DNA of 64,000 nt from Ectobacillus sp. JY-23 (GTDB lineage Bacteria > Bacillota > Bacilli > Bacillales > Bacillaceae_G): the NCBI RefSeq assembly GCF_023022965.1, contig NZ_CP095462.1:3390001-3454000 (forward strand), in the 5' to 3' direction. Positions 780 to 61,885 of this stretch are shown here, piece after piece. The notes beneath the pieces were generated by a model. That model made no database searches and was not told where the DNA came from. It worked only from the letters and a program-made list of their open reading frames with translations. Numbering within the stretch: the first letter of the stretch is position 1; each line of letters opens with the position of its first letter. The position numbers and the translations under genes are program-made.

Positions 780-993
780 TTAGGTGCGGTTGACCTTTAG
801 TACATAAACGAGATGTTCCCGCTTTTTCTGGGTGTGCAGCTGTGCCTGAACGGTCGGCTTCGCTTTTCTATTGTCCAGCTGCGCCTCCCAGGCCCTGCCA
901 CCTAAGAACCTCACCCACAAAAAGGCAAAAAGCACCTTTTAGGGGTGAGAACCTTAGGTTCTGTGCCTGAACGGTCGGCTTCGCTTTTCTATT
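780..993 (+). repeat. Dispersed ~121-123 bp structured repeat, locus 1
   Basis: This fills most of the gap between comZ and fabH. A 32-base sequence (GTGCCTGAACGGTCGGCTTC and flanks) is present twice, at 841-872 and 962-993, which gives a 121-bp unit. A decayed unit lies upstream from about 780. The core hairpin at 901-958 has outer stem CCTAAG/CTTAGG, an AAC/AAC internal loop, inner stem CTCACCC/GGGTGAG, and a cap related to AAAGGC/GCCTTT. The same architecture recurs at the four other loci of this window. Confidence 0.85.
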
Positions 994-5182: not shown

Positions 5183-5189
5183 TTCTGCT

Positions 5190-5467
5190 TCTGCACCTAA
5201 GGAGGGCGCTTCCGCTTTTCTTGTGTCTAGCTATGCTGGCTAGGCGCTGCCATCAGAGAACCTCCGCCCATAAAGGCAAAAAGCGCCTTTTCGATCGGAG
5301 AACCTCTGCTTTTGCGCCTAAACGAGCCAGCTCCGCTTTTCTTGTGTCTAGCTCCAGCGCCCAGGTGCTGCCAGCGGATAACCCTCCCCCTTGCAAGGCA
5401 AAAAGCGCCTTTACAGGAGAAGGAACCTCCGCTTCTGCCCCTAAGCAGGGCGCTTCCGCTTTTCTTG
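5190..5467 (+). repeat. Dispersed ~121-123 bp structured repeat, locus 2 (about two units)
   Basis: CGCTTTTCTTGTGTCTAGCT occurs near 5213 and 5334, a 121-bp period, and the end of a third unit abuts the trpS stop codon. Core hairpins: 5254-5308 with outer stem CAGAG/CTCTG, AAC/AAC loop and inner CTCCG/CGGAG; and 5373-5434 with outer AGCGGA/TCCGCT. Both carry the AAAGGC/GCCTTT-type cap. The small reading frames crossing this region on both strands are products of the repeat and were not called. Confidence 0.85.
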
Positions 5468-6718
<1,251 letters not shown>

Positions 6719-20706: not shown

Positions 20707-20770
20707 TAGAAGCGTCTGGCAGGAATAAGACGAAGAAAATCGAATGGTAAGAAAAAAGGAGGGATTTATT

Positions 20771-22594
20771 ATGTCAGAGCAAAAAACAGTAAATAAATTG
20801 CCGCGTCGTGAGGAACTGGACAAGGCATACATGTGGAAGCTTGAAGATATTTTCGCATCTGATCAAGAATGGGAAAAAGAGTTTGAACAAGTAAAAGGAT
20901 TGCTGCCGAAGCTTGTTGATTTTAAAGGAAAGCTTGGCGAATCCTCTCAGCAATTGCTTGAAATGCTTCAGTATCAAGATGAGGTATCGCTTCGTCTCGG
21001 TAAGTTATATACATACGCACATATGCGATACGATCAAGACACAACGAATTCTTTTTACCAAGCTTTAAATGATCGGGCAACAAATTTGTATACGGAGCTT
21101 TCTAGCAGCACAGCATACATTGTGCCGGAGATTTTAGCTGTACCGGAGGAAAAGCTACAGGCATTTTTAACAGAGAATAAAGACTTAGCTCTGTATGCAC
21201 ATTCTTTAGAAGAAATTAACCGTCAGCGTCCACATGTATTGTCTGAGAATGAGGAAGCAATTTTAGCGCAAGCATCTGACGCGCTACGCACTGCGAGCAA
21301 TACGTTTGGAATGTTAAACAATGCGGACTTGAAGTTTCCGGAAATTACGGATGAAAACGGTGAAGAGGTAGAGGTGACGCATGGGCGCTATATTCGCTTT
21401 TTAGAAAGCGAAGACCAGCGTGTACGTCATGATGCGTTTAAAGCCGTATACGATACGTATGGTCAGTATAGAAATACATTGGCCAGCACACTGAGTGGCG
21501 CTGTGAAGCGTAATAACTTTTATGCGCGTGTCCGCAAGTATGATTCTGCTAGACAAGCAGCTCTTGCGAACAATAGTATTCCGGAAAGTGTGTACGACCA
21601 ATTAGTCGGCACAGTAAATGATAATTTGCACCTGTTGCATCGTTATATTGACATTCGTAAACGTGCGCTTGGTGTAGATGAGCTGCATATGTATGATTTG
21701 TACACGCCGCTTGTTAAGGAAGTCAAGATGGAAGTGTCATATGAAGAAGCACAAGAATTATTATTGAAGTCTCTTGCTGTGTTAGGAGACGAGTATGTGG
21801 AAATTTTGAAGCAAGCATACGCAGATGGCTGGGTAGATGTGTATGAAAACAAGGGCAAGCGCAGCGGTGCCTATTCCTCAGGTGCATATGGTACAAATCC
21901 GTACATTTTAATGAACTGGCATGACAATGTAAACAACCTGTTCACATTAGCGCATGAGTTCGGTCATTCTGTACACAGCTATTACACAAGAAAGCATCAA
22001 CCGTATGTGTATGGAGACTATTCTATTTTCGTCGCAGAAGTTGCATCTACATGCAATGAAGCGTTGTTAAACGATTACTTGCTTAAGACGACAGACGATA
22101 AGAAAAAACGTTTGTACTTGTTAAATCATTATTTAGAAGGATTCCGTGGTACAGTGTTCCGTCAAACAATGTTTGCTGAGTTTGAACACCTCATTCATAT
22201 GAAGGCGCAAGAAGGCGAGGCGTTAACACCTGACTTATTAACGGAACTATACTACGATCTTAATAAGAAGTACTTTGGAAACAACCTTGTCATTGATGAG
22301 GAAATCGGTCTGGAGTGGTCGCGTATTCCGCATTTCTACTACAATTACTATGTGTATCAATACGCAACGGGCTTCAGTGCGGCAACTGCGCTATCTAAGC
22401 AGATTTTAGAAGAGGGCGAGCCTGCGGTGAAACGCTACATTGATAACTTCTTAAAAGCGGGTAGCTCTGATTACCCAATCGAAGTGTTGAAAAAAGCCGG
22501 TGTAGATATGACATCTTCTAAGCCAATAGAAGAAGCACTTCAAGTGTTCGCTGAAAAATTAGATGAGCTAGAGCGATTGTTGTTTGAAGAATAA
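20771..22594 (+). CDS. pepF: Oligoendopeptidase F (PepF, M3B metallopeptidase)
   Basis: 607 residues, the usual length. It hydrolyses medium-size peptides in the cytoplasm, a natural companion to the Opp importer. The zinc site HEFGH is at 395-399 and the downstream ligand is Glu423 in VAEVASTCNEALL. FYYNYYVYQYATGFSAA near the C-terminus is a family block of the substrate pocket. AAAAAGGAGGGATTTATT precedes the ATG at 20771. It lies directly behind coiA, as in other bacilli. Confidence 0.95.
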   Translation: MSEQKTVNKLPRREELDKAYMWKLEDIFASDQEWEKEFEQVKGLLPKLVDFKGKLGESSQQLLEMLQYQDEVSLRLGKLYTYAHMRYDQDTTNSFYQALNDRATNLYTELSSSTAYIVPEILAVPEEKLQAFLTENKDLALYAHSLEEINRQRPHVLSENEEAILAQASDALRTASNTFGMLNNADLKFPEITDENGEEVEVTHGRYIRFLESEDQRVRHDAFKAVYDTYGQYRNTLASTLSGAVKRNNFYARVRKYDSARQAALANNSIPESVYDQLVGTVNDNLHLLHRYIDIRKRALGVDELHMYDLYTPLVKEVKMEVSYEEAQELLLKSLAVLGDEYVEILKQAYADGWVDVYENKGKRSGAYSSGAYGTNPYILMNWHDNVNNLFTLAHEFGHSVHSYYTRKHQPYVYGDYSIFVAEVASTCNEALLNDYLLKTTDDKKKRLYLLNHYLEGFRGTVFRQTMFAEFEHLIHMKAQEGEALTPDLLTELYYDLNKKYFGNNLVIDEEIGLEWSRIPHFYYNYYVYQYATGFSAATALSKQILEEGEPAVKRYIDNFLKAGSSDYPIEVLKKAGVDMTSSKPIEEALQVFAEKLDELERLLFEE

Positions 22595-22624
22595 AAACTT
22601 GCGCTGCGGCGCAAGTTTTTTTTG
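22593..22624 (+). terminator. pepF terminator
   Basis: AAACTTGCGC-TGCG-GCGCAAGTTT and a long T run immediately after the stop codon. Confidence 0.9.
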
Positions 22625-22628
22625 TACC

Positions 22629-23167
22629 GAGAACCTCAGCCCTATGGAGCTGAGCGAGCCGCATCCGCTTTTCTTGATGTCCAGCTCCAGCGGCAAGCTC
22701 CGCCGGTCTGAGAACCTCGCCCCATAAAGGCAAAAAGCGCCTTTTTGTGTCGAGAACCTTAGCCCTATGGAGCTGAGCGAGCCGCATCCGCTTTTCTTGA
22801 TGTCCAGCTCCAGCGGCAAGCTCCGCCGGTCTGAGAACCTCGCCCCATAAAGGCAAAAAGCGCCTTTTTGTGTCGAGAACCTTAGCCCTATGGAGCTAAG
22901 CGAGCCGCATCCGCTTTTCTTGATGTCCAGCTCCAGCGGCAAGCTCCGCCGGTCTGAGAACCTCGCCCCATAAAGGCAAAAAGCGCCTTTTTGTGTCGAG
23001 AACCTTAGCCCTATGGAGCTAAGCGAGCCGCATCCGCTTTTCTTGATGTCCAGCTCCAGCGGCAAGCTCCGCCGGTCTGAGAACCTCGCCCCATAAAGGC
23101 AAAAAGCGCCTTTTTGTGTCGAGAACCTCAGCCCTATGGAGCTGAGCGAGCCGCATCCGCTTTTCTT
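22629..23167 (+). repeat. Tandem array of 123-bp structured repeats, locus 3 (4 full units plus a partial)
   Basis: GAGAACCT(C/T)AGCCCTATGG starts at 22629, 22752, 22875, 22998 and 23121, an exact 123-bp period. Copies differ at few positions. Each holds a core hairpin (first at 22708-22762): outer CTGAG/CTTAG or CTCAG, AAC/AAC internal loop, inner CTCG/CGAG extended by partial pairing, and cap AAAGGC/GCCTTTTT. A second possible stem, CTCAGC/GCTGAG, changes to CTTAGC/GCTGAG and then CTTAGC/GCTAAG between copies. Because 123 is a multiple of three, long open frames cross the array; they are not genes. Confidence 0.95.
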
Positions 23168-23170
23168 ATT

Positions 23171-23344
23171 CTATCTAAATCCTTTAAATCGGTTGCGGTC
23201 AGTCCAAAAACTGACTACTGCTACAATAGCTATAAAAAGAAGCGGGACAGACAAAATTAGAGGCACAATTTCGAGTAGAGACAATATGTAAATGATAAAT
23301 ACGATGGTAATGATTGTTATACTAGTAAAGATTTTTATTTTCAT
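23171..23344 (-). CDS. Small two-segment membrane protein, unknown
   Basis: 57 residues with two hydrophobic segments (IFTSITIITIVFIIYILSLL and VPLILSVPLLFIAIVAVVSF) and a basic tail, WTDRNRFKGFR. I start at the ATG of MKIKIF (23344), which follows CAGGGAGTGAAAGCGCT; the frame is open to 23446. It belongs to no family I recognise. Its stop codon lies four bases from the 123-bp repeat array, which may act as its transcription terminator on this strand. Confidence 0.55.
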   Translation of the reverse strand: MKIKIFTSITIITIVFIIYILSLLEIVPLILSVPLLFIAIVAVVSFWTDRNRFKGFR

Positions 23345-23560
23345 AGCGCTTTCACTCCCTGTTCGTTTCTTAGAAATAGTGTATTCAAAAATGAAAGCGT
23401 TTAGAATGTGACATTTTTGTGAAATAGCAAAAATACAGGTTGTCATCTGACGTCGAATCTTGTAATATAATAAGCGTGAACGAATTCACAAACAAACATA
23501 TACCCCTTTGTTTGAACGTGAAAATTTCTCCCATCCCCTTTAAATTTTTATAAGCCGTAA

Positions 23561-23595
23561 GAAAAAGACCCGGTGCTTTGCACCGGGTCTTTTTC
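23561..23595. terminator. Bidirectional terminator downstream of spxH
   Basis: GAAAAAGACCCGGTGC-TTT-GCACCGGGTCTTTTTC is a near-perfect inverted repeat. It can end the minus-strand spxH transcript; no plus-strand gene points into it. The rest of 23345-23685 contains only AT-rich sequence and a weaker inverted repeat (CAAACAAA ... TTTGTTTG, 23490-23515). Confidence 0.8.
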
Positions 23596-28480: not shown

Positions 28481-28545
28481 CTATGACCAAATATTGATTG
28501 GAATTAAAATTACAAGTTGTTCTTGCGTATTTAGAGAGAGTAGAT

Positions 28546-28863
28546 GTGAGGTTAGGTGTCCCGCGAGAGAGTTTCGCGGAGCACGAGAGGGAGTAGATGT
28601 GAGGTTAGGTGTCCCGCAAGAGAGTTTCGCGGAGCACGAGAGGGAGTAGATGTGAGGTTAGGTGTCCCGCGAGAGAGTTTCGCGGAGCACGAGAGGGAGT
28701 AGATGTGAGGTTAGGTGTCCCGCGAGAGAGTTTCGCGGAGCACGAGAGGGAGTGGATGTGAGGTTAGGTGCCCCGCGAGAGAGTTTCGCGGAGCACGAGA
28801 GGGAGTGGATGTGAGGTTAGGTGTCCCGCGAGAGAGTTTCGCGGAGCACGAGAGAAAACCTGA
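28546..28863 (+). repeat. Tandem array of a 53-bp hairpin repeat (about 6 copies)
   Basis: GTGAGGTTAGGTG(T/C)CCCGC starts at 28546, 28599, 28652, 28705, 28758 and 28811, an exact 53-bp period. Each unit carries CCGCGA-GAGAGT-TCGCGG, extended outward by GTG/CAC across a two-base bulge. Differences are few (CGCGAG to CGCAAG in one copy; GTGTCC or GTGCCC; TAGATG or TGGATG). Two decayed half-units follow to about 28935. Units are contiguous without spacers, so this is not a CRISPR. 28481-28545 holds nothing recognisable. Confidence 0.93.
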
Positions 28864-54978: not shown

Positions 54979-55490
54979 AAGCGGCTTCGCTTTTCGAGTG
55001 TCCAGCTGCATCGGCTAGCTCCTCCGGTCTGAGAACCCCAGCTCATAAAGGCAAAAAAGCGCCTTTTTGAGCCGGGAACCTCAGCCCTATGGAGCTGAAC
55101 GAGCCGATTCCGCTTTTCGAGTGTCCAGCTGCATCGGCTAGCTCCTCTGGTCTGAGAACCCCAGCTCATAAAGGCAAAAAAGCGCCTTTTTGAGCCGGGA
55201 ACCTCAGCCCTATGGAGCTGAACGAGCCGATTCCGCTTTTCGAGTGTCCAGCTGCATCGGCTAGCTCCTCCGGTCTGAGAACCCCAGCTCATAAAGGCAA
55301 AAAAGCGCCTTTTTGAGCCGGGAACCTCAGCCCTATGGAGCTGAACGAGCCGATTCCGCTTTTCGAGTGTCCAGCTACGCTTCCCAGGCACTACCATCTA
55401 AGAACCTCGGCCACAAAAAGGCAAAAAGCGCCTTTTCGAGCCGAGAACTTTAGATTCTGTGCCTAAGCGGTCGGCTTCGCTTTTCTACAT
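54979..55490 (+). repeat. Tandem array of 123-bp structured repeats, locus 4
   Basis: TTTTCGAGTGTCCAGCT starts at 54991, 55114, 55237 and 55360, an exact 123-bp period. The last unit diverges (TACGCTTCCCAGGCACTACC) and resembles locus 1. Core hairpins: 55029-55084 and the next two copies with outer CTGAG/CTCAG, AAC/AAC loop, inner CCCAGCTCA/TGAGCCGGG; the last with outer ATCTAAG/TTTAGAT and inner CTCGGC/GCCGAG. All have the AAAGGC/GCCTTT cap. It lies between yjcH and yjcG. Long open frames through it are repeat products. Confidence 0.95.
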
Positions 55491-59734: not shown

Positions 59735-59998
59735 ACTGAACGAAAAGCGTTGATGAAGAAGAGTACGTATTACAAACATGTCAGAGAGCTGATGGTTGGT
59801 GCGAATCAGTATGGGCGTAATAGGGAATGGGCTTCGGAGCTTCCAAACCGAACTAACAGTAGGCTTTGGCGAACAGTCTCATCGTTACAAGAGACGCGCA
59901 TTGAACTTGATGCGTTAAAGCGGGTTGCATTTGCAGCCAATGAAGGTGGCACCACGGGTCCTCTCGTCCTTTACTATAGGATGAGTGGGCCCTTTTTG
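59735..59998 (+). ncRNA. Trp-specific T-box riboswitch 1 of the trp operon
   Basis: Stem I: CAGAGAGCTGATGGTTGGTG with the GNUG element, and specifier TGG at 59828-59830 in GGGAATGGGC. The T-box sequence AGGTGGCACCACGG is at 59944-59957. A terminator, CTCGTCC-TTTACTATA-GGATGAG, ends in CCCTTTTT at about 59998. Uncharged tRNA-Trp should allow read-through. Confidence 0.9.
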
Positions 59999-60140
59999 TA
60001 TAGAAAAGCGGAATCGGCTCGTTCAGCTCCATAGGGCTGAGGTTCCGGGCTCAAAAAGGCGCGTTTTACCTTTATGGGACGGGGTTCTCAGACTGGAGGA
60101 GCTAGCCGATGTAGCTGGACAGAAGAAAAGTGGAGCCGAC
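59999..60140 (-). repeat. Inverted copy of the ~123-bp structured repeat between two T-boxes, locus 5
   Basis: GAAAAGCGGAATCGGCTCGT, CAGCTCCATAGGGCTGAGG and GGAGCTAGCCGATGTAGCTGGAC are the reverse complement of the locus 4 unit. Outer stem CTGAG/CTCAG and the AAC loop are intact; the inner stem and cap are partly decayed. The copy begins right after the terminator T run of T-box 1. Confidence 0.88.
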
Positions 60141-60179
60141 CTGTATGACCAAAATGGATGTAACACCTAATTAAATAAA

Positions 60180-60442
60180 GTATAAATCGCTGAGTAAGAA
60201 GAGTACGTATACGAGAAGCGTTCCAGAGAGCCGGGGCAGGTGAGAGCCGGTACGATATTGTATACCGAATGGGCTTACGAGAGGTCTTTTGAAATATGGA
60301 GTAGGAAGACACGGATTCCTCCGTTACAAGGATAGGGTATCATGTGTACCCGAAAAAGAGGGGTTCTTTGCGGAACCCGAACTGAGGTGGCACCGCGGTA
60401 ACTATATCGTCCTCTGCATGTATATGCAGGGGATTTTTTTGT
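60180..60442 (+). ncRNA. Trp-specific T-box riboswitch 2 of the trp operon
   Basis: Stem I: CCAGAGAGCCGGGGCAGGTG; specifier TGG at 60270-60272 in CCGAATGGGC; a stable GGGTTC-TTTGC-GGAACCC hairpin at 60360-60378; T-box AGGTGGCACCGCGG at 60385-60398; terminator CCTCTGCAT-GTAT-ATGCAGGGG followed by ATTTTTTT. It ends 25 bases before trpE. Together with T-box 1 it forms a tandem two-input control. Confidence 0.93.
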
Positions 60443-60466: not shown

Positions 60467-61885
60467 ATGATGATAAAAGAAACGTTCGACATGATGCGGA
60501 AACAGAAGCAATTGTTTTTCATAACAGATGAAATGGAAGGAGACGAGGTAACGCCGATTGTTTTATACCAGCGGCTTGCGGGAAATAAAACGTTTTTGCT
60601 AGAAAGCTCGCTCACCCATGAAGACAAAGGACGCTACTCCTTCATTGGTAGCAATCCGTACATGGAAATCACCAGCTATGGCACGGAAATAAACATAATC
60701 TCCGGAACCGATGTGAAGCAGCGGCAAGGAAAAGTGCTTGATGTAATTAGGGAGCTGCTTGCTTTTCAAAAAGCGGACAGTCCGTTTCCATTCGCGGGAG
60801 GTGCGGTTGGCTACGTCGGCTATGATGTAATCAGGCAGTATGAGGAGATCGGTGCGGAAAATAACGATGAGCTGGAAATGCCAGAAACACACCTTCTGTT
60901 TTACCAAACCTTTACGGTGTACGATCACAAATTGCAAAAGGTATCTTTCGTGTACGTATACCGCCCAGAGGAAGAGACTTCTTATGAACAAGTGCAAGAG
61001 ATTTTAACGAATATGAAAACAAAAGCGCAGCGTCAAAGCGCACCGGCAACACCGGTAGCAAAGCTGAAGGCAAAGTTTCATTCGAATATTAAGGAAGATG
61101 AGTTTTATGAAATGGTGAATCGAGCCAAGGAGTATATCAAGGCAGGTGATATTTTCCAAGTAGTACTTTCACAGCGCTTGCGTACGACATTCGATGGCGA
61201 TCCGTTCGGGTTGTATCGCCGCTTGCGTATCACAAATCCTTCACCGTACATGTTTTATGTGGACTTCGGTTCGTATACGGTACTTGGCTCCTCCCCGGAG
61301 AGCTTGCTGTCGGTGAAGGGGGATAAGGTTATCACAAATCCGATTGCCGGCACAAGACCACGCGGTAGAGATAAAGAAGAGGATGAAAAAATCGCGAAGG
61401 AGCTTCGCGGCAATGAAAAGGAAAAAGCAGAGCACCTCATGCTGGTGGATCTAGGAAGAAATGATTTGGGATTCGTTAGTGAAATTGGTACAGTAAAGCC
61501 TGAAAAATTTATGGAGATTGAACGCTATTCGCATGTGATGCATCTTGTTTCCGAAGTGTCCGGGCAATTGCGGGAGGATGTGACGTGCTTAGATGCCTTG
61601 CAATATTGCTTGCCGGCCGGTACTGTGTCCGGTGCACCGAAAATTCGGGCGATGACGATCATCGATGAGCTGGAAAACAAAAAACGCGGTGTGTATGCGG
61701 GTACGGTCGGTTATATCTCGTTCAACGGCGATATGGATATGGCGCTCGCGATCCGGACGATGGTGGTTAAGGATAACAAAGCTTACATTCAGGCAGGAGC
61801 AGGGATTGTGTACGATTCCGAGCCCGAGGCGGAATATATGGAAACGATTAATAAAGCGAAAGCGCTGCTGGAGGTATTATCATGA
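60467..61885 (+). CDS. trpE: Anthranilate synthase component I
   Basis: 472 residues. It converts chorismate to anthranilate with ammonia from TrpG. Chorismate-binding blocks are visible: DIFQVVLSQRLRTTF, NPSPYMFYVDF, SSPESLLSV, NPIAGTRPRG, MLVDLGRNDLG and LPAGTVSGAPKIRAM. The N-terminal LLESSLTHEDKGRYSFIG lies in the tryptophan feedback site. AAGGAGGAAATACACA precedes the ATG. First gene of the operon, behind tandem T-boxes; overlaps trpG by four bases. Confidence 0.97.
   Translation: MMIKETFDMMRKQKQLFFITDEMEGDEVTPIVLYQRLAGNKTFLLESSLTHEDKGRYSFIGSNPYMEITSYGTEINIISGTDVKQRQGKVLDVIRELLAFQKADSPFPFAGGAVGYVGYDVIRQYEEIGAENNDELEMPETHLLFYQTFTVYDHKLQKVSFVYVYRPEEETSYEQVQEILTNMKTKAQRQSAPATPVAKLKAKFHSNIKEDEFYEMVNRAKEYIKAGDIFQVVLSQRLRTTFDGDPFGLYRRLRITNPSPYMFYVDFGSYTVLGSSPESLLSVKGDKVITNPIAGTRPRGRDKEEDEKIAKELRGNEKEKAEHLMLVDLGRNDLGFVSEIGTVKPEKFMEIERYSHVMHLVSEVSGQLREDVTCLDALQYCLPAGTVSGAPKIRAMTIIDELENKKRGVYAGTVGYISFNGDMDMALAIRTMVVKDNKAYIQAGAGIVYDSEPEAEYMETINKAKALLEVLS

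Follow-up and report, generated by a model that had tools for sequence, protein, structure and literature searches.

REPs are among the closest described systems to the repeat studied here. In the account of the GTAG and CGTC families and their RAYT given in PMC3733652, convergent copies lie less than 20 bp from 3' ends and their termini often supply a TAG stop, and work cited there reports frequent GT pairing in REP stems. For Bacillus, PMC3446304 describes bcr1-bcr18 of the Bacillus cereus group, of which bcr1-3 are called MITE-like and are often found in UTRs. PMC2267715 describes intergenic Firmicutes repeats with predicted stem-loops, among them Bhal-1, Bant-1 and Efa-1. Bacillaceae-1 RNA, Rfam family RF01690, is tabulated in PMC2864571.

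We analysed a repeat in a 64,000-nucleotide stretch of the genome of Ectobacillus sp. JY-23 (the window; positions 3390001-3454000 of a single 3.89-Mb contig, genome G000). Like the REPs described in PMC3733652, it is palindromic, intergenic and multi-copy, lies beside the 3' ends of ORFs, and occurs in single and clustered units. Unlike those REPs, which measure 20-40 bp and carry a GTAG or CGTC tag, it is mostly 118-128 bp long, forms head-to-tail tandem arrays, and has TGTCYAGCTNC as its left and TNCGCTTTTC as its right end. It differs further from REPs as portrayed there in that G.T and A.C mismatches are equally common in its stems and in that the window's genome has no match to Y1_Tnp. 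It shares with bcr1-bcr18 the character of dispersed intergenic repeats of Bacillus, but is order-wide with a shared end module, a distinction drawn from the description in PMC3446304. The repeats of PMC2267715 are likewise intergenic with predicted stem-loops but defined per species; they too are set apart by their descriptions, and an overlap with Bhal-1 (74 bp) is possible. Bacillaceae-1 RNA corresponds to a 67-position insert in only some repeat units, and units without the insert are complete. In the open full-text literature, searched also with literal motif strings, we recognised no description of the repeat family. The repeat is real, strongly structured and widespread, and is best read as a REP/MITE-like DNA hairpin of a sequence class for which we found no description in that literature, spread by a mechanism that we infer. 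As expected of a MITE, it is non-coding, dispersed and short. A resemblance to integron attC sites was considered and dropped.

Copies, unit plan and distribution

The array at 22.6 kb spans 22619-23167 and consists of four complete 123-bp head-to-tail units and one partial unit (tandem repeat of period 123, 4.5 copies, 98% matches). The first-pass annotation had placed it at 22629-23167, of which the end stands and the start moves to 22619. The further copies that it had listed at 0.8, 5.2, 55.0 and 60.0 kb were all recovered, that at 60.0 kb in minus-strand orientation. The window has 8 matches to GAGAAC-N-AAAGGC-N-GCCTTT, against 0.00 expected from shuffles. Using BLAST of the unit against the 3.89-Mb genome, we obtained 49 unit matches in 22 loci, and addition of the 0.8-kb copy gives about 23 loci genome-wide. 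Arrays often start with a right arm only (R0); that of the 22.6-kb array directly follows a terminator-like inverted repeat behind an M3-peptidase gene (20744-22594, plus strand).

Table 1. Repeat units and right-arm remnants in the window (R0, right arm alone, at the start of an array)
Feature	Positions	Strand	Remark
0.8-kb copy, R0	840..868	+	right-arm remnant
0.8-kb copy, single unit	872..989	+	
5.2-kb array, R0	5187..5220	+	after terminator-like hairpin
5.2-kb array, first unit	5224..5341	+	
5.2-kb array, second unit	5345..5464	+	
22.6-kb array, R0 (partial unit, right arm only)	22619..22673	+	right arm matches that of the following units
22.6-kb array, unit 1	22678..22796	+	TGTCC...CGCTTTTC
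22.6-kb array, unit 2	22801..22919	+	
22.6-kb array, unit 3	22924..23042	+	
22.6-kb array, unit 4	23047..23165	+	
55-kb array, R0	54979..54995	+	short
55-kb array, three units	54999-55118, 55122-55241, 55245-55364	+	near-identical
55-kb array, fourth unit	55368..55485	+	different subtype of arm sequence
Single unit at 60.0 kb	60003..60121	-	between two T-box leaders (59741-59974, 60181-60417)

Three other features of the window were recorded alongside the repeat. An anthranilate-synthase-type gene (60467-61885) is preceded by tandem T-box leaders (59741-60417), with the minus-strand unit between them, and a match to the sRNA RsaE/RoxS (91.4 bits) lies at 23476-23594, about 310 nt downstream of the 22.6-kb array. 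At 28533-28854 there is a 53-bp tandem repeat of 6.1 copies; parts of it (28576-28721) and of similar repeats of 40-60 bp match one locus of the sister genome G001, and this locus also matches many other places in the genome (for example 576247-576659, 3039001-3039368, 3567418-3567687 and 3657222-3658117). From these matches, the 53-bp repeat looks like a second dispersed family.

Each unit folds end to end. Its ends form the pairs AGC/GCT, a TNC/TNC internal loop, and a stem 1 that is variable but paired; in a terminal inverted repeat test, AGC/GCT and stem 1 pair and the outermost bases, TGTCY and TTTTC, are unpaired. Among the matches listed across the order, the unit period is 118-128 in 133/182 units, and the 3x3 TNC/TNC loop is present in 169/182, although the search motif fixes or restricts the left TNC and the final base of the right one. 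Since the loci were picked by the end motif, the order-wide conservation of AGC/GCT and the left TNC is by construction, while stem-1 pairing and unit length lie outside this selection. An AAC/AAC internal loop, which the first-pass annotation had described as conserved, is kept in 38/41 units of the window's genus (the exceptions being AAT/AAC, CCC/AAT and GTT/AAC); it is limited to that genus and, by eye, some relatives, and the order-wide loop is instead the different TNC/TNC, nearer the base. The cap hairpin with its T run, and the hairpin with CTTTTCTT, are terminator-like by eye only. Chimeric units with arms of two subtypes exist. On the minus strand of locus L073 there is a 35-bp miniature element with its end stems nearly back to back, TGTCCAGCTCCAGCGCC-TA-GGCGCTTCCACTTTTC.

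We searched 397 genomes of the order with the motif CGCTTTTCT-N(1-6)-GTCYAGCTNC and found it in 190 of them, in 77/135 genera, with one match for the reversed-pattern control columns. The matches listed include Rossellomorea, Lysinibacillus, Sporosarcina, Peribacillus, Planococcus, Halobacillus, Anoxybacillus and Metabacillus, and our label "Bacillales" rests on these named genera. The loci named here come from at least 117 stretches, picked by the end motif and not a random sample. By eye, their interiors form several subfamilies with little common sequence and the same plan, all of which pair; some subfamilies (with GTCATAAG...CTTATGC) are common to several genera. The window's unit had no match in plasmid or phage collections at E 0.01, and the end motif is present in six viral contigs. 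Records under the names Cyanobium sp. (a bin that may be contaminated) and Pilibacter termitis (L134, L064 and L100) contain it as well.

Within the window, Rfam models at gathering score detect only three T-boxes and RsaE, so an Rfam family was rejected as the identity of the repeat; below-threshold matches to the array region belong to families named for enterobacteria and other proteobacteria. The RF01690 covariance model has no match in the window at gathering score. In 34 loci scanned elsewhere, RF01690 gives 19 matches in 12 loci, in or beside the repeat and all on the opposite strand, a fraction that is not a rate because 18 of the scanned loci were picked partly for long units. A recognised right end follows 16/19 of these matches, 15 of them within 15-47 nt; at L071 the match is nearer the left arm, and at L174 it starts 12 nt behind a left motif. 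At L112, one unit of an array has the RF01690 insert and the next is without it. Judged from these positions, RF01690 looks like an optional nested module of the repeat element.

Covariation of the stems and the level of pairing

The first-pass annotation had proposed one hairpin plan with stems that differ in sequence yet stay paired, and had suggested a covariation analysis. We aligned 41 distinct units from the window's genome, G001 and G003 (44 candidates, less two false motif matches and one unit with a 106-nt deletion) and then folded the alignment. Standard pairs fill 95.1% of the cells at its 27 predicted pairs, compared with 83.1% (sd 0.7) after shuffling of mates and 33-54% when partners are slid by 1-3 columns, bearing out the proposed plan. 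Double changes affect 17 pairs (11.2 shuffled), and 146 cells are changed on both sides (51.7 shuffled). The covariation score is 0.355 against 0.142 (sd 0.009), a value reached by 0/500 shuffles; these same-genus figures are inflated and are not probabilities, because the units are kin and their own alignment supplied the structure. Across the order, 182 units from 103 loci among the matches listed have 5.36 of 6 stem-1 pairs, against 3.57 (sd 0.07) with shuffled mates; at least 5/6 pairs form in 150/182 units, and the 66 distinct left stem-1 sequences are mostly paired. Covariation with kept internal loops in the genus, and covariation of stem 1 across the order, are therefore strongly supported.

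In an RNA folded from one strand, G.U is a common, tolerated mismatch and A.C is rare. The repeat shows no such asymmetry: G.T accounts for 17 and A.C for 21 of 1107 cells in the genus alignment, and for 112 and 114, respectively, of the isolated mismatches order-wide (142 of the 182 units among the matches listed, with a period up to 135). As a control, 23 tRNAs in the same loci have G.T in 29 and A.C in 1 of 391 cells. Order-wide, some types of mismatch outnumber others (GA 104, TC 8, AG 84, CT 30), so that part of these mismatches reflects conserved sites. As the pairing shows no strand bias, it is not kept as a one-strand RNA, and on balance we take it to be a property of the DNA and not of RNA. 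Of the two kinds of selected structure considered in the first-pass annotation, RNA is thus disfavoured, and what remains as the source of the pairing is a hairpin at the DNA level (single-stranded DNA or cruciform) or arm-to-arm copying.

These counts bear on the first alternative to a mobile DNA hairpin, a structured RNA or mRNA 3'-UTR element, in which transcripts of the opposite strand would carry the hairpin behind the stop codon, protecting the mRNA or slowing termination, and the RNA fold would be selected. We consider this unlikely. In its favour, both strands fold strongly, with a mean folding z of -4.7 as read and -5.4 for the opposite strand, and as RNA it is the opposite strand that is the more stable, by a mean of 5.8 kcal/mol (60 of the 142 units); a strand-neutral element predicts no such bias, which points mildly towards an RNA on the opposite strand. 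The entry of the nested Bacillaceae-1 module in Rfam as an sRNA gene on that same strand also supports it. Against it stand the equal G.T and A.C counts, which differ from those of tRNA, and the persistence of units with mismatched arms, such as the chimeras L024, L195 and L062 (by eye).

Also unlikely is a mutation bias, by which one arm is copied from the other through template switching in the hairpin with no selected function, the copies being relics that only slip and recombine. The strand symmetry of the mismatches agrees with it, as do the many double changes (the 146 cells above) beside few intermediates (17 G.T and 21 A.C). In unit L063:540-655, moreover, the left AAC reads GTT, turning the loop into a perfect helix. 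But copying should erase internal loops, and AAC/AAC is kept in all but three of the same-genus units; the shared ends, the dispersal over about 23 loci and the placement at stop codons would also go unexplained. Arm-to-arm copying may contribute to the pairing, and it is not the whole story since the internal loops persist.

Placement beside stop codons and turnover of units

Placement was examined using mechanical ORFs as the genes near arrays. Among the matches listed, 100 unique arrays comprise 55 whose right gene is on the opposite strand and has at least 90 aa, 34 whose right gene is co-oriented, with no stop codon there, and 11 with neither. The right end of the array lies within -3..+5 nt of the opposite-strand stop codon in 34 of the 55. 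For the 53 of these that have a usable left gene, the count is 33, whereas 6.3 would be expected if arrays fell evenly in the gap, and the maximum in 200,000 simulations was 18. The mirror control, the left end, gives 0/41 within range against 4.4 expected (among the matches listed). In three further genomes, 8/11 opposite-strand right ORFs end within the same range (17 arrays in 30 loci; 2 of the 8 ORFs have fewer than 90 aa, and one of the 11 ends is misplaced inside an array), and in the window's own genome the count is 4/8 (19 arrays listed). Within the window, the second unit of the 5.2-kb array ends 3 nt from the stop of a gene on the minus strand for a class I (W/Y) tRNA synthetase (5468-6502), and unit 4 of the 22.6-kb array ends 5 nt from the stop (23171-23173) of a 91-codon minus-strand ORF (23171-23446). 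Since the flanking letters vary, the rule concerns position and not a fixed target word.

This placement directly behind stop codons is what a 3'-UTR RNA would show, and the 34/100 arrays beside a co-oriented right gene speak against one. The mRNA 3'-end element named in the first-pass annotation accordingly holds as to location among the matches listed, and a function there is putative. The placement is probably explained by bidirectional terminators, which would leave a T-tract (on the strand of the repeat) immediately next to the stop codon; a T-tract lies beside a stop codon in this way at the lone right arm of 3282.96 kb. Among the matches listed, a terminator lies upstream of 12/35 arrays that begin with a left end and of 36/152 units preceded by a right arm, fractions that make the T-tract target partly inferential. 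Terminator adjacency as a universal left boundary was therefore rejected, being true for several arrays here and not general. In 7 of these 12 left-end arrays the T-run ends 31-40 nt before TGTCYAGC (among the matches listed). Left flanks of this kind occur at L168, L127, L073, L056, L057, L156, L093 and L113, and several share, by eye, the loose consensus ATAAG..TATAAR-TTT..TTCGRG-NAT, which is perhaps a promoter or a longer left end.

In the window's genome, 22/23 loci are co-directional with the replication fork (p 5.7e-6), the unit at 60.0 kb being the only one oriented against it. The origin was taken from parS and GC skew and the terminus as opposite the origin, with genome sizes other than that of G000 mostly rounded. 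Elsewhere the co-directional counts are 24/27 in G118, 2/11 in G339, 0/3 in G087 and 19/49 in G255, and the total over 11 genomes is 111/179. G339, G087 and G255 speak against targeting of a replication strand as the mechanism, and we do not rely on replication orientation because other genomes differ in it.

We compared G001 with the window's genome, using long flank matches that are 88-96% identical, and found several loci with different numbers of units. In the alignment of the 3275-kb site, G000 has just a right arm of 25 bp and G001 the arm plus one unit; the coordinates of the matches point to the same difference, of 122 bp, at 3282 kb and at 2997 kb. No element could be recognised in G003 at the 0.8-kb site, where the region is diverged. 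Because a right arm is present at all three polymorphic sites, slippage between direct repeats, with loss of a unit, accounts for them just as well, and the involvement of direct repeats at these sites is also in line with a mutation bias. A duplicated target at a clean, unoccupied site was seen at none of the three. In some arrays the match of R0 to R1 is limited to 7-15 nt, and such R0 are, by eye, right arms of other subfamilies; on this reading, units apparently stand behind right ends that were there before them. Units have clearly been lost or gained, and presumably they have also been gained at new places.

The letters beside the units are consistent with such gain. The likeness between the spacer before a unit and the flank after the array is 1.37 against 0.58 (sd 0.08; 0/3000), and 1.21 against 0.60 (sd 0.09) in single-unit arrays, kinship being ignored in both; this is what insertion with a short duplication would leave. 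The test dropped 15/117 arrays with spacer and flank differing in the first letter, and without that drop it gives 2.07 against 1.30 (sd 0.07). Duplication of a target around the whole array was rejected as not significant (0.68 against 0.53, sd 0.09, at the best offset). For the 27 arrays with a true left end the signal is weak, with p = 0.009 in the best of the six tests and p = 0.06 overall.

Probable mobilisation and meaning of the repeat

Taken with the covariation and the placement, we think that the repeat is probably a mobile DNA hairpin of REP/MITE-like, non-autonomous type, inserting at the 3' ends of genes and at ends of its own; among the options put forward in the first-pass annotation, the REP-like mobile unit agrees best with the data. 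The folded single-stranded ends would be recognised by an enzyme supplied in trans, which would insert units beside T-tracts next to a hairpin. Its targets would be the bidirectional terminators that directly follow stop codons, and the hairpin of the element itself with its CTTTTCTT end. Insertion at a hairpin plus T-tract would explain the placement at gene 3' ends and the tandem arrays together, and deletion provoked by the hairpin would leave lone right arms. Spread in the manner of a retro-element, in which an RNA ending in CTTTTC is reverse transcribed at the target to give a precise right and a variable left end, is very improbable: right ends are indeed precise, R0 lengths vary and a TATAAR-like leader follows a terminator at some left-end copies, but other arrays start precisely at TGTCYAGC with T at -1 in 36/38 (among the matches listed), and deletion explains the lone right arms equally.

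The REP-associated transposase that had been suggested as a sign of such a unit was absent from the searches of the window's genome. Y1_Tnp (PF01797) has 0 matches in G000 (7/7 candidates scored), so that the RAYT/IS200 type was not detected there, and it has none in the element-rich genomes G098 (5/5 candidates scored) and G084 (10/11 scored). The domain is present in 293/397 genomes, with 7 matches in the sister genome G001. Of the 25 Y1 matches in G027, G053, G087, G118 and G279, the 9 with listed positions all lie more than 20 kb from any listed element. A RAYT-type mechanism is not supported, given the lack of a Y1 match in the window's genome, and a lost enzyme or another one is possible instead. 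Four long-range pairs of ends were seen, the longest 3981 bp with ORFs, none of them shown to enclose a transposase, and no autonomous version with its own transposase gene was established in the loci examined.

More tentatively, the mobile hairpin may extend to a Bacillales-wide class of elements that can move without Y1/RAYT by way of the end module with its TNC/TNC loop, target a hairpin plus T-tract behind stop codons, and carry exchangeable inner modules, one of which is entered in Rfam as an RNA of its own (RF01690); we regard this broader reading as possible, though doubtful.

If the mobile hairpin is correct, a family of such elements is present in about half of the genomes sampled from the order, and no Rfam model except RF01690 picked it up in the window and the 34 loci scanned. 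The finding would raise the question of how REP-like DNA is mobilised where a genome has no detectable Y1 transposase, and would recast RF01690 as part of a mobile repeat. Compensatory change, which is usually read as proof of RNA structure, would here come from a DNA element, and the comparison of G.T with A.C would offer a simple test separating RNA from DNA-level pairing.
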